Shown piece after piece: positions 24,347 to 34,514 of a stretch of 34,927 nt of DNA (its first letter is position 1; each line of letters starts with the position of its first letter). Location: assembly GCA_945860355.1 (NCBI GenBank), contig CAMARB010000019.1, positions 1-34,927 of the forward strand. Direction: 5' to 3'. The notes below the pieces were generated by a model. That model made no database searches, was not told the origin of the DNA, and saw only the letters and a program-made list of their open reading frames with translations. This stretch comes from Chthoniobacter flavus (lineage in GTDB: Bacteria > Verrucomicrobiota > Verrucomicrobiia > Chthoniobacterales > Chthoniobacteraceae). A program made the translations under genes and the position numbers.

Positions 24347-25750
24347 CTACGGATTGATGTTGTAATCGATGAACTGGTAATCCTGCCCGTTGTCCGCCGG
24401 GATGGTTAGCCGGATGACGGTGGTATTGTTCTCGTAGTCGGCCTCTTGATACCGCCGCGAGGGATTGACCATGATTCGCAGAAGGTAATCGCCGGGGGCA
24501 ACGTCGGTCACGTCGATCCACTGCCCCGGAGTAGTCGATCCATAAATATCCGCCCAACCGGCGCTGATGGTCTGAGGTCCCCCCTCCGGGTTCTCGGGCG
24601 CCCACAGATCGAATCTGGAGACGTTGACAAGATTCCAAGCCTCCTTCCGGCCGGTCGTGACCGCGCCCGTGCTTTGATTAACGAGCTCAAACTTCATGAA
24701 GTCCTTCAAATGATAGTGCTGGTGGCACGGGTCAAACTCGTAGAACTCGGGGTCCTGCTCGTTGCTGGGTCCGCGGAAATCCATCCCTCCGGTGTTGCGG
24801 GTCTCCAAAGTGAACACCAGCAGTCGTCGGCTGCCCGCTTGGGCCCATCCGTGCTTCACCGCGCAATCATCTTCAGGCTCGGTCTCAGGAGTGAAGGTAC
24901 GGCGATAAATGTACGGTTCGATCGACGGCGCAAAAATGGAGAGATCCGGCCCATCACTGACCCGTTGAGCCATCAGACTGGTCTCCGAAAACGTGCTCGA
25001 TCCCTGCAGTCGGATGTAGATCTTCCCGGGGGCATTCATCCGCACGAGCGCACGCGCAATGACCTGATCGCCACCGCTGGGACTGCGAAACCAGCGCGGC
25101 TTCAAATCGTAGGACCGCGTCTGCGGGATGCGATTCCTTGCGATCAGAATGCTGGACCCGGCGGCACGTCCCTCTCCTGAAACCCGGTAAGTGCCGGCAC
25201 TGGGGGCATCCACGACAAACAGCCGGCTCGAGTTGGCGCCCCCGGCAAGATTATCAACGGAACGGCCCAGCTGCATCGGCTCCGGCCTGGCGTTCTGGGA
25301 AATGGTGTAGAGCCTTTCCACCGCGGGACTCGCGTAACCAAAGTCATCATAAAAACTCTTGGCAATCACCTTGGTCGTCGAACGCACCTTCAGCGGGCGA
25401 ACATAAATCGGACTGTCCGGGTTCGGCTCCGCCCCATCGGTGGTGTACCGAATCACGCCTTTGAGCCCCGCCCAGCTCGGGGTCACGATCCCAACGCTCA
25501 CAGAGCCCACATACGAGCCCGCCGCCGCGCGAAAAGCGGGCCGCGGGGTGGTCTGCAAATACACACTGAGGTGCATCCCTGAATACGCGGAATAGGGCGA
25601 CAAACGCACCATCATTCGGCCCGCCCTTGGTTTCTTGAACTCGATGCGCTCCGCGTTGGTCGGCCCTTGGCTCACTTGATTCGAGCCCGGCTCGGACTCG
25701 ATCGACGCGAACAGGTCACAGTTGCCACGCCCACCGCCGGTGACAACCAC
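24347..25750 (-). CDS. Lysyl oxidase-like protein (main open frame)
   Basis: The longest uninterrupted frame (467 codons from a GTG) encodes most of a secreted copper amine oxidase-like protein. Its order is the end of a PPC-type domain, a chitobiase C-terminal-like (Fn3-associated) domain (VIRYTTDGAEPNPDSPIY, VIAKSFYDD), a second PPC-like region, and a C-terminal lysyl oxidase domain. The copper-binding triad CHQHYH is at 24710-24727. The lysine in GRKEAWNL (codon 24644-24646) and tyrosine in ADIYGSTTPGQWIDVTDV (codon 24542-24544) align with human LOX Lys320 and Tyr355, which crosslink to the lysine tyrosylquinone cofactor. The tail PGDYLLRIMVNPSRRYQEADYENN matches LOX closely. The real N-terminus with signal peptide is in the same frame upstream, cut off by a stop (see the next entry). 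Confidence 0.85.
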   Translation of the reverse strand: MVVTGGGRGNCDLFASIESEPGSNQVSQGPTNAERIEFKKPRAGRMMVRLSPYSAYSGMHLSVYLQTTPRPAFRAAAGSYVGSVSVGIVTPSWAGLKGVIRYTTDGAEPNPDSPIYVRPLKVRSTTKVIAKSFYDDFGYASPAVERLYTISQNARPEPMQLGRSVDNLAGGANSSRLFVVDAPSAGTYRVSGEGRAAGSSILIARNRIPQTRSYDLKPRWFRSPSGGDQVIARALVRMNAPGKIYIRLQGSSTFSETSLMAQRVSDGPDLSIFAPSIEPYIYRRTFTPETEPEDDCAVKHGWAQAGSRRLLVFTLETRNTGGMDFRGPSNEQDPEFYEFDPCHQHYHLKDFMKFELVNQSTGAVTTGRKEAWNLVNVSRFDLWAPENPEGGPQTISAGWADIYGSTTPGQWIDVTDVAPGDYLLRIMVNPSRRYQEADYENNTTVIRLTIPADNGQDYQFIDYNINP

Positions 25751-26304: not shown

Positions 26305-27114
26305 GTGATCACCGTTGAATCAAAACCAGTCCTTGGAACGCCCCGCCACCGCGAGATGGGCGCCCGAATCCTGCTGCGGAAGTCCGGGGCGGCAAACGAG
26401 GATCCCGCGCCTTACCGGGTCCGACTGGCCACCTCGCGGGAGGATGTCCGGGCGGCCCAGACGCTGCGGTTCATTGTGTTCAACCTGGAGATGCAGGAGG
26501 GCTTGGAGTCCTCCTATCTGACGCTCCGGGACGAGGACCGTTTTGACGCGGCCTGTGATCATCTCCTCGTGGAGTTTGAGGGCGAGGTGGTGGGCACTTA
26601 CCGGATGCAGACGGGACGCCAGGCAACTGCGGCCCACGGGTTTTACAGCGCGCAGGAGTTTGATTTCCGCCCGTTCCAAGGGTTCCAGCAGGCCCTCATG
26701 GAGCTGGGGCGCGCTTGTGTGCGAAAGGATCATCGCAACCTGCGCGTTCTCTCCCTCCTGTGGCGCGGCATCGCGCAGCACGCGCGCCGGGGCGGATGCC
26801 GCTACTTGTTGGGGTGCAGCTCGCTCACCTCGCAAAGTCCGGCCGAAGGCAGGGCTGTTTACCGGATGCTTGCGGAAAAATATCTCGCACCGGAGTTCCT
26901 GAGGACCGCCCCGCTCGCGGGCTGGGAATGCTCGTGGGACGGCCCCCAAGCGCAGGGGGTGGCGGTGCCGAGGCTTTTGCAGGCGTACCTTTCCCTGGGC
27001 GCCAAGATCTGCGGGGAACCCGCGCTGGACCGGGACTTCAAGACGATCGATTTCCTGACGGTGCTGGACCTCGCAGACCTGCCCGAGGCCGCGGCTGTTT
27101 TTCTTGGCCGATGA
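26305..27114 (+). CDS. olsB: OlsB-like GNAT N-acyltransferase (ornithine lipid synthesis)
   Basis: A 269-residue protein of the OlsB/Acetyltransf_5 family. OlsB transfers a 3-hydroxyacyl group from acyl carrier protein to the alpha-amino group of ornithine, giving lyso-ornithine lipid, a phosphorus-free membrane lipid. Family signs are the opening YRVRLATSREDVRAAQTLRFIVFNLEM, the core HLLVEFEGEVVGTYRMQTG, the LMELGRACVRKDHRN region and LLGCSSL. The first start is a GTG at 26305; an ATG at 26356 (MGARILLRKSG) is an equally likely start since the conserved part begins after it. The stop overlaps the start of the PlsC-like gene (ATGA), so they are translationally coupled, as is common for olsB-olsA. 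Amino acid substrate other than ornithine is possible. Confidence 0.82.
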   Translation: MITVESKPVLGTPRHREMGARILLRKSGAANEDPAPYRVRLATSREDVRAAQTLRFIVFNLEMQEGLESSYLTLRDEDRFDAACDHLLVEFEGEVVGTYRMQTGRQATAAHGFYSAQEFDFRPFQGFQQALMELGRACVRKDHRNLRVLSLLWRGIAQHARRGGCRYLLGCSSLTSQSPAEGRAVYRMLAEKYLAPEFLRTAPLAGWECSWDGPQAQGVAVPRLLQAYLSLGAKICGEPALDRDFKTIDFLTVLDLADLPEAAAVFLGR

Positions 27115-27932
27115 ACCCGGACCCTTTCGCGATGGAGGTCGATCTGGGCATTGCGGCGGCGCGTATTGAGGCGACCCCGGGCCTGCTGGAACGGAGGGAT
27201 GCCTGCGGAATCGTCGGGTGCGCGACCAAATGGACGCGGGGGCTGGCGCGCATCGTCGCCACCGTGGTGGAGGCCCGGCGGCGCGGGGTGTCGCGTTGTC
27301 CACTGGAGGGTGCCCGTCATCTGAGCGGCGCTTGCCGCCGGTTGGCGGAAATTTTCGCGCTGGAAGTGGTGATCCACGGACAGCCCCCGGCGGAGGGACT
27401 GGTGGTGGCCAATCACCTGGGTTTTCTCGACATCGTCGCGCTTTCGGCGGCGGCCCCGTGTGTGTTCGTGGCGAAACGGGAGGTCGGGCGCTGGCCTCTG
27501 GTGGGATCCGCCGCCTCGCATTGCGGAACGGTGTTTGTCGATCGGGAGCGGCGATCCGCGGTGGCGACCGTCGCGGGGCGGATGCGGCGGATCTTGGAGG
27601 CGGGCGCCCGGGTGGTGATTTTTCCGGAGGGCACAAGCACGGACGGCTCGGGGGTGCTGCCGTTTCGTCCGGCGCTGCTGCAGTCCGCGGTGGACGCCCG
27701 GGCGGCCCTGATTCCGTGCGGGATCGCGTATCGGGATCCGGCTGGAGCGCCTGTTCCTGAGGTGGCCTATTTCGGCGAGCGCTCGCTGGGGGCGACCCTC
27801 AGCGCCCTGGTGGCGCGGCGCCGGACCCGGGTGCATCTGGTTTTTGGTTCTCCGATCCGCCCCGAGGCCCCGCGGGCCGAGCTGGCGCGGGAGTTGCACC
27901 GGGAGGTGACCCGGCTAACGGCGACCGTGTAG
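27111..27932 (+). CDS. olsA: PlsC/OlsA-like 1-acylglycerol-3-phosphate (or lyso-ornithine lipid) O-acyltransferase, copy 1
   Basis: A 273-residue PlsC-type acyltransferase. The catalytic motif NHxxxxD is seen as ANHLGFLD, the substrate-binding FPEG as VVIFPEGTSTDG, and VFVDRERR and PCGIAYRDP mark the other two blocks. Coupled by a 4-base overlap to the OlsB-like gene, it is best read as OlsA, which adds the second acyl chain to lyso-ornithine lipid; a general PlsC role cannot be excluded. The start at 27111 (MNPDPFAMEVDL) is fixed by the overlap. From codon 6 onward the gene is included in a tandem duplication, and a nearly identical copy follows at 27997-28851 with a different N-terminus. 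Confidence 0.85.
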   Translation: MNPDPFAMEVDLGIAAARIEATPGLLERRDACGIVGCATKWTRGLARIVATVVEARRRGVSRCPLEGARHLSGACRRLAEIFALEVVIHGQPPAEGLVVANHLGFLDIVALSAAAPCVFVAKREVGRWPLVGSAASHCGTVFVDRERRSAVATVAGRMRRILEAGARVVIFPEGTSTDGSGVLPFRPALLQSAVDARAALIPCGIAYRDPAGAPVPEVAYFGERSLGATLSALVARRRTRVHLVFGSPIRPEAPRAELARELHREVTRLTATV

Positions 27933-28059
27933 GAACCGAAAAACCCCCGTTTTTTGGCTGGTCCCGGCCCGTCACCCGGGGCAGCAAAGTGGGTTGATGA
28001 AACAGACACTTTCGCTGCTGGTCTTGCTGGGGATCGGCGCGGCGGGTTTTGCGGGTCGA
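27126..28059 (+). repeat. Tandem duplication, unit 1 (934 bp)
   Basis: This unit runs from TTCGCGATGGAGG inside acyltransferase copy 1 through its stop, the 64-bp spacer, and the first part of a cytochrome c signal peptide frame. Unit 2 follows head to tail. The units differ in length only by a 15-bp gap near the start (AARIE present here, absent in unit 2) plus scattered substitutions. The edges coincide with the short shared sequence TTCG, which also occurs at the right-hand edge (28979-28982), suggesting duplication by microhomology. Confidence 0.85.
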
Positions 28060-28851
28060 TTCGCGATGGAGGCGGATTTGGGCATGGCGGCGACCCCGGG
28101 CCTGCTGGAACGGAGGGATGCCTGCGGAATTCTTGCGTGCGCGGCCAAATGGACGCGGGGGCTGGCGCGCATCGTCGCCACCGTGGTGGAGGCCCGGCGG
28201 CGTGGGGTGTCGCGTTGTCCCATGGAGGGCGCCCGGCATCTGAGCGGCGCTTGCCGCCGGTTGGCGGAAATTTTCGGGGTGGAAGTGGTGGTCCACGGAG
28301 AGCCCCCGGCGGAGGGACTGGTGGTGGCCAATCACCTCGGGTTTCTCGACATCGTCGCGCTATCGGCGGCGGCCCCGTGTGTGTTCGTGGCGAAACGGGA
28401 AGTCGGGCGCTGGCCTCTGGTGGGATCCGCCGCCTCGCATTGCGGGACGGTGTTTGTCGATCGGGAGCGGCGATCCGCAGTTGCGCCCGTCGCGGGCCGG
28501 ATGCGGCGGATCTTGGAGGCGGGCGGCCGGGTGGTGATTTTTCCGGAGGGCACCAGCACGGACGGCACGGGGGTGCTGCCGTTTCGTCCGGCGCTGCTGC
28601 AGTCTGCGGTGGACGCCCGGGTGGCACTGATTCCGTGCGGGATCGCGTATCGGGATCCGGCTGGAGCGCCTGTTCCTGAGGTGGCCTATTTCGGCGAGCG
28701 CTCGCTGGGGGCGACCCTCAGCGCCCTGGTGGCGCGCCGCCGGACCCGGGTGCATCTGGTTTTTGGTTCCCCGATCCGCCCCGAGGCCCCGCGGGCCGAG
28801 CTGGCGCGCGAGTTGCACCGGGAGGTGACCCGGCTGACGGCGACCGTGTAG
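27997..28851 (+). CDS. Chimeric PlsC/OlsA-like acyltransferase with a cytochrome signal peptide, copy 2
   Basis: A 284-residue protein produced by the tandem duplication. Residues 1-20 (MKQTLSLLVLLGIGAAGFAG) are the Sec signal peptide of the neighbouring cytochrome c with one change (I for L). From RFAME on it is acyltransferase copy 2. Against copy 1 I count about 14 substitutions and a five-residue deletion; NHLGFLD and FPEGTS are unchanged, and the C-terminal third is almost identical. The frame is fully open and uses the cytochrome's own upstream sequence. PlsC-type enzymes work at the cytoplasmic face of the membrane, so a cleavable signal would either misroute this copy or serve as a membrane anchor. 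It could be a functional novelty or a non-functional by-product; lack of stops over 855 bp with drift suggests some constraint or recent origin. Confidence 0.8.
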   Translation: MKQTLSLLVLLGIGAAGFAGRFAMEADLGMAATPGLLERRDACGILACAAKWTRGLARIVATVVEARRRGVSRCPMEGARHLSGACRRLAEIFGVEVVVHGEPPAEGLVVANHLGFLDIVALSAAAPCVFVAKREVGRWPLVGSAASHCGTVFVDRERRSAVAPVAGRMRRILEAGGRVVIFPEGTSTDGTGVLPFRPALLQSAVDARVALIPCGIAYRDPAGAPVPEVAYFGERSLGATLSALVARRRTRVHLVFGSPIRPEAPRAELARELHREVTRLTATV

Positions 28852-28978
28852 GAACCCAAAAACCCCGGTTTTTTGGCTGGTCCAGGCCCGTCACCCGGGG
28901 CAGCAAGATGGTTTGATGAAACAGACACTTTCTCTGCTGGTTTTGCTGGGGCTCGGCGCGGCGGGTTTTGCGGGTGAA
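28060..28978 (+). repeat. Tandem duplication, unit 2 (919 bp)
   Basis: Second unit of the tandem pair, covering the body of acyltransferase copy 2, the spacer and the signal-peptide start of the true cytochrome c gene. Its right edge is the TTCG at 28979-28982, after which unduplicated cytochrome sequence (GAGCCGATCGAAAAC) continues. Confidence 0.85.
28856..28876 (+). terminator. Weak A/T hairpin between acyltransferase and cytochrome c genes
   Basis: CCAAAAACC (28856-28864) can pair with GGTTTTTTGG (28867-28876) right after the stop codon of acyltransferase copy 2. The equivalent place after copy 1 (27934-27957) has a slightly weaker version. It might attenuate transcription into the next gene, but loop size and the lack of a proper T tail make this tentative. 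Confidence 0.3.
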
Positions 28979-29300
28979 TTCGAGCCGATCGAAAACTCGA
29001 TGAAATTCACGCACAAAGCGCCCAAGGGGGGAGAAGAAGGTGTCCGACCGGATCAACGAAGGCACCAACAGCCCCGAGGAACTGGCCAAGACCCTGGAGC
29101 TCTACAAGCTGATGCTCGACTGCAAACCGCCCAAGGGCGAACAGGCGGCGTTTAAGGAGAAAGTCGCCAAGCTCATCGCCGCCACCGAAGACGTGGTTCT
29201 CAACAAAGAGGGGGCGCGCGCCGCGTATAAAGAGGCGTCCAACTGCAAGGCCTGCCACAACGAGCACAAAGAGAAAAAGCCCGAGGCCCCCAAACCCTAG
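28916..29300 (+). pseudogene. Small periplasmic cytochrome c, frameshifted
   Basis: The gene begins with a Sec signal (MKQTLSLLVLLGLGAAGFAG) and continues EFEPIENSMKFTHKAPKG. It then shifts frame at a run of six G (29026-29031). With five G it would read KGEKKVSDRINEGTNSPEELAK and on to the stop at 29300. The second part contains LELYKLMLDCKPPKGEQAAFKEK and one haem motif CKACH (SNCKACHNEHK), giving a single-haem cytochrome of about 127 residues, a layout common in Verrucomicrobiota. As sequenced, the first frame ends at 29155 without the haem site. The indel may be real, a sequencing error or a slippage site. The signal-peptide part is duplicated upstream in the chimeric acyltransferase gene. 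The stop is 16 bp from the convergent barrel gene. Confidence 0.75.
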
Positions 29301-34479: not shown

Positions 34480-34514
34480 CTCACCTCTCACCTCTCACCT
34501 CTCACCCCTCACCG
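34480..34514. repeat. Five tandem 7-mers CTCACCT
   Basis: CTCACCT is present three times exactly (34480-34500), then CTCACCC and CTCACCG. It is a short tandem repeat between the two 78-bp units and a likely place for slippage. Confidence 0.8.

Follow-up and report, generated by a model that had tools for sequence, protein, structure and literature searches.

We describe here a tandem duplication of approximately 0.93 kb in Chthoniobacter flavus that has joined the signal peptide of a small cytochrome c, in frame, to the body of an OlsA-like lipid acyltransferase, leaving the ordinary acyltransferase gene in place immediately upstream. The window analyzed, 34,927 nt in length, is an entire contig (C19), and the duplication lies in its interior, away from the contig ends. 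To judge from comparison of the two copies, both enzyme bodies have been under purifying selection while diverging, a divergence possibly older than the fusion, and the fused gene is probably a working second enzyme. We lean toward the explanation that a short-junction duplication produced a second copy, which was then kept as an acyltransferase acting on the cytoplasmic side of the membrane, with the captured leader being mainly a by-product.

Anatomy of the duplicated acyltransferase gene

The ordinary gene (copy 1) belongs to an olsB-olsA pair that is adjacent in nearly all relatives examined, and in which the ATGA at 27111 is shared by the olsB stop and the olsA start. Both copies of the second gene encode PF01553 acyltransferases in which the alignment shows the HX4D and FPEGTS motifs to be complete, and a structure search matched the model of the fusion to the PlsC of Thermotoga (5kym). 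Gene order, domains and motifs are like those of the OlsB-OlsA acyltransferases of ornithine lipid synthesis, but here OlsA is duplicated and the scores fall under the NCBI equivalog cut-offs. OlsA models are the best match for both copies, yet at 136-139 bits against an NCBIfam equivalog cut-off of 300; because of these scores we refer to the enzymes as OlsA-like and not as OlsA. Two related sequences were noted elsewhere. A second strong OlsB-like GNAT domain is present in the genome, away from the olsBA operon (L051; G000:C49:9033-9335). A scan of viral contigs returned one distant acyltransferase only, an OlsA-like sequence with 33% identity at 504-1127 of L049, which is listed as viral (IMG/VR) and may be cellular.

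Table 1. Features of the duplicated locus, in window coordinates.
Feature	Position	Strand	Evidence and remarks
OlsB-like N-acyltransferase (GNAT, Acetyltransf_5), first gene of the operon	26305..27114	+	PF13444 E 9e-30; NCBIfam OlsB models E 5e-40, under equivalog cut-offs
Copy 1, OlsA/PlsC-like acyltransferase with native start, 273 aa	27111..27932	+	PF01553 E 3e-25; OlsA models E 9e-40
Duplication unit 1, 934 bp, begins at codon 6 of copy 1	27126..28059	+	Repeat search, alignment
Chimeric ORF, cytochrome c signal peptide plus acyltransferase, 284 aa	27997..28851	+	ORF; PF01553 E 1e-25; PlsC fold 5kym E 7e-10
Duplicated signal-peptide stretch, 20 codons	27997..28056, partner 28916-28975	+	3 base differences: 2 silent, 1 Ile/Leu
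Duplication unit 2, 919 bp	28060..28978	+	Repeat search, alignment
TTCG microhomology, 4 bp	28060-28063 at junction; also 27126-27129 and 28979-28982	+	Edge bases
Candidate internal start: GGAGG 28068-28072, 11-nt spacer, ATG 28084-28086	28068..28086	+	Duplex energy -9.3 kcal/mol
Small cytochrome c gene, leader donor, C-terminal CXXCH	28916..29300	+	Frame broken at G6 29026-29031; intact homologues in genus and family

The initial annotation had claimed a tandem duplication with a microhomology at its edges, and alignment agrees with it on both head-to-tail units, their coordinates and a 15-bp gap between them (Table 1). The units are 94.9% identical, with 46 of 895 ungapped positions differing (27165-28059 vs. 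28084-28978). A repeat search of the window gave a family of spacing 919, and in a search of the genome the unit matched at exactly two places (100% and 93%), with no third. Duplication of this anatomy is far beyond chance. The locus is a head-to-tail repeat of parts of two genes with both flanking originals present, the downstream one being frame-broken, as in a chimeric gene made at a short junction. The copied segment would run from codon 6 of olsA through the end of that gene and the 64-bp spacer into the leader codons of the neighboring cytochrome c gene. TTCG is found at all three unit edges (27126, 28060 and 28979), and the edge bases together with this common motif are consistent with a joint formed at these 4 shared bp; a match of 4 bp is weak, being expected by chance in an estimated ~2% of cases.

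The single gap between the units is in frame and lies just 3′ of 28084-28089 in copy 2. It falls within an imperfect direct repeat at 27150-27176 (ATTGCGGCG / ATTGAGGCG), so that copy 2 may have lost the 15 bp by slippage or, alternatively, copy 1 may have gained them. A run of 111 identical bases after 27707 was considered as a gene-conversion tract; it is at about chance level (~15%, estimate) and no such tract is claimed.

Divergence and constraint between the copies

Comparison of the two copies gives 23 synonymous and 14 nonsynonymous changes (dS 0.108, dN 0.0255). The resulting dN/dS is 0.235, and the excess of silent change is significant (Fisher P 2e-5). A pairwise ratio could mask one decaying copy, and we therefore ran 400 simulations in which one copy evolved neutrally for half of the dS. 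Neutral decay of this kind gave a mean of 26 amino-acid changes (minimum 18), a stop codon in 36% of the runs, and profile scores with a mean of ~245 bits and a maximum of 273, for an expected cost of ~47 bits. The real copies show ~12 amino-acid-changing differences in the simulated stretch, and a profile of 27 relatives scores the fusion at 295.5 bits, higher than copy 1 at 292.7 bits. Since simulated decay predicts more changes and lower scores than the real copies show, both bodies are constrained. At informative sites, the family-typical residue is found four times in the fusion (G94, V95, V99, and E102) and once in copy 1 (S180). The persistence of the fusion without stop codons, which had been pointed out in the initial annotation along with the comparison needed to examine it, is borne out by these data, and purifying selection on both copies can be added to it.

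The divergence may nonetheless predate the duplication through recombination between strains ~5% apart, and, if so, the past constraint would carry no information on the fusion. A recent duplication would then have brought together diverged alleles whose differences arose in separate strains before they recombined, and the fusion would be young and perhaps a useless by-product. In favor of such an origin, the differences are spread evenly over the unit, the spacer, with changes at 6 of its 64 positions, diverges at about the synonymous rate, and close relatives by which to date the event are lacking. However, this explanation demands illegitimate joining between strains and not within one chromosome, and no second allele was found assembled elsewhere in the genome. 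We consider it unlikely.

The captured leader and the start of translation

The signal peptide at 27997-28056 (MKQTLSLLVLLGIGAAGFAG) is in frame with the acyltransferase from codon 6 of the ordinary gene, and the fused ORF is open over 284 codons to the stop at 28851, just as originally annotated. In the explanation that we favor, the duplication would have deprived copy 2 of the native start, the one overlapping the olsB stop, and supplied in its place, in frame, the cytochrome c gene's leader and start site. Translation would then begin at the captured start at 27997, whose spacer was copied entire, at the internal ATG at 28084, or at both. ATG 28084 has the strongest anti-Shine-Dalgarno pairing of the locus's seven candidate starts, with binding strength judged by duplex energy alone and with an 11-nt GGAGG-to-ATG spacing that is long. 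An enzyme begun at 28084 would be leaderless and of near-normal length, and the orthologues of several relatives begin nearby in the alignment. Copy 1 carries ATT at 27150 in place of this ATG, and the start codon may have been newly gained in copy 2 or, conversely, lost in copy 1. A promoter scan found none, and a spacer hairpin considered as a conserved terminator was rejected, as its folding is no better than that of shuffles in either copy.

Acyl-ACP and acyl-CoA, the acyl donors of OlsA/PlsC-type acyltransferases, are cytoplasmic. An exported enzyme would therefore be expected to lose its function and decay; the fusion is instead conserved. Since the donors are cytoplasmic and the body is constrained, a second OlsA-like enzyme on the cytoplasmic side is the likelier product of the locus. 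Copy 2 would accordingly be a second lyso-lipid O-acyltransferase, its advantage perhaps one of dose or slight specialization, and the leader would be mainly a by-product of regaining a start and not a selected export device. An observation that counts against this explanation is that the frame of the leader has also been kept, as translation and export would require.

A leader that works, with translation from 27997 and Sec-dependent transfer to or across the inner membrane, would yield a periplasmic or membrane-anchored acyltransferase. The leader is a genuine one, since homologous small cytochromes c have leaders at the same place, and it differs from its partner by one Ile/Leu exchange, being otherwise unchanged. 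The residues that follow it have an approximately neutral-to-negative net charge. Moreover, the hydropathy of copy 2 is the highest among the upstream stretches of relatives examined, from which it follows that the orthologues are normally without such a leader. On the other hand, export is hard to reconcile with cytoplasmic acyl donors and a constrained body, the start at 28084 would bypass the leader, and 20 codons give no statistical test of selection. In the structure model of the fusion, the body is of moderate confidence, and the leader and first 41 residues have pLDDT below 50, so the model supports no statement on the leader. Taken together, we find a functional leader doubtful. The initial proposal that the fusion could shift the enzyme to the periplasmic side is unsupported, as is the idea that it was retained on that account, given the cytoplasmic donors, a fusion as conserved as the ordinary copy, and the leaderless start. 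The boldest version, in which one short-junction duplication gave rise to a naturally fixed gene whose cytochrome leader directs the lipid acyltransferase to the outer side of the membrane, there to acylate lipids from a non-cytoplasmic donor, strikes us as very improbable.

Leader donor, distribution and known systems

In the donor gene, the part encoding CXXCH is open in another frame (29040-29300), and the frames of the leader and of CXXCH never meet. Homologues read uninterrupted through the G6 point, and the other genes inspected in this part of the window are also uninterrupted; the break could reflect a pseudogene or an assembly error. Neither this break nor the olsB-olsA arrangement featured in the initial annotation. 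Homologous small cytochromes c in the genus and family bear leaders of their own at the same place and are located on contigs other than that of the same genome's olsA match. Since these homologues are not beside olsA, the olsA/cytochrome c neighborhood is, across the genomes examined, confined to this lineage.

A strong match to the enzyme was found in 46 of 213 genomes of the order, including the source genome. Each of the other 45 carries a single copy, and two copies occur only in the source genome. Searches for a near relative, or for the junction itself, among relatives, in the family by DNA, in a collection of genome contigs, and in the order returned nothing above ~50% protein identity, and the event can therefore neither be dated nor seen elsewhere. 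The best named match is an Opitutaceae MAG (43%). An assembly or library artefact in this metagenome-assembled genome (86.5% complete, 276 contigs), to which the junction's presence in a single assembly and the nearby frame break might point, is highly unlikely, since the 4-bp overlap at the junction is too short for a false k-mer join by an assembler, the 46 differing sites show that the copies are not one locus read twice, and the junction lies inside a 35-kb contig.

Most of the known chimeric genes born by duplication stem from laboratory selections, and they usually disappear again. In Pseudomonas fluorescens, Farr et al. reportedly described in 2017 a domain fusion with experimentally shown relocalization, which arose by another kind of rearrangement. 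The present fusion is similar as a new gene possibly altering the location of an enzyme, but relocalization is putative here and the rearrangement type differs. The closest parallel is with the chimeric nusG′-′sigH and rplK′-′sigH genes of Staphylococcus aureus, made by tandem duplications of 1,210 and 1,888 bp with flanking repeats of 8 and 7 bp, in which the fusion point lies at codon 7 or 16 of sigH, the initial codons come from the downstream nusG or rplK, and the captured start is used for translation (PMC3486894). As at our locus, duplication occurred between short direct repeats, the body of the upstream gene was joined in frame to the N-terminal codons of the downstream one, and the original copy remained intact (PMC3486894). 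In contrast, the sigH fusions were laboratory-selected and reversible and used repeats of 7-8 bp (PMC3486894), whereas the present one is natural, has a 4-bp repeat and ~10% silent divergence, and captured a signal peptide. An older precedent comes from Salmonella, where tandem duplications placed his genes behind new promoters (Anderson and Roth, 1978, cited in PMC11111574); the junction supplies new expression signals in both cases, by capture of a promoter there and of a leader and start codon here. Deletion is a further, broad route to gene fusions (PMC12803068).

Our literature search found no natural signal-peptide fusion born by duplication in bacteria. The locus would add to a known kind of event a natural, diverged and constrained case in which the captured piece is a signal peptide. 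The term new-gene birth, applied in the initial annotation, is fair for the ORF, but its body is a paralogue that has hardly changed, and events of this sort have already been documented experimentally (S. aureus sigH; PMC3486894). An apparently natural case, with ~10% silent divergence and both copies constrained, opens the transition from accident to retained gene to testing, and it shows that a truncated copy can regain a start via the leader of the next gene.

Two further features of the window were noted. A protein carrying a lysyl oxidase domain (PF01186) together with chitobiase-like domains, of a family better known from eukaryotes, is encoded at 24347-25750, and a short tandem array (CTCACCT x 4.9) lies at 34480-34513, close to the contig end.
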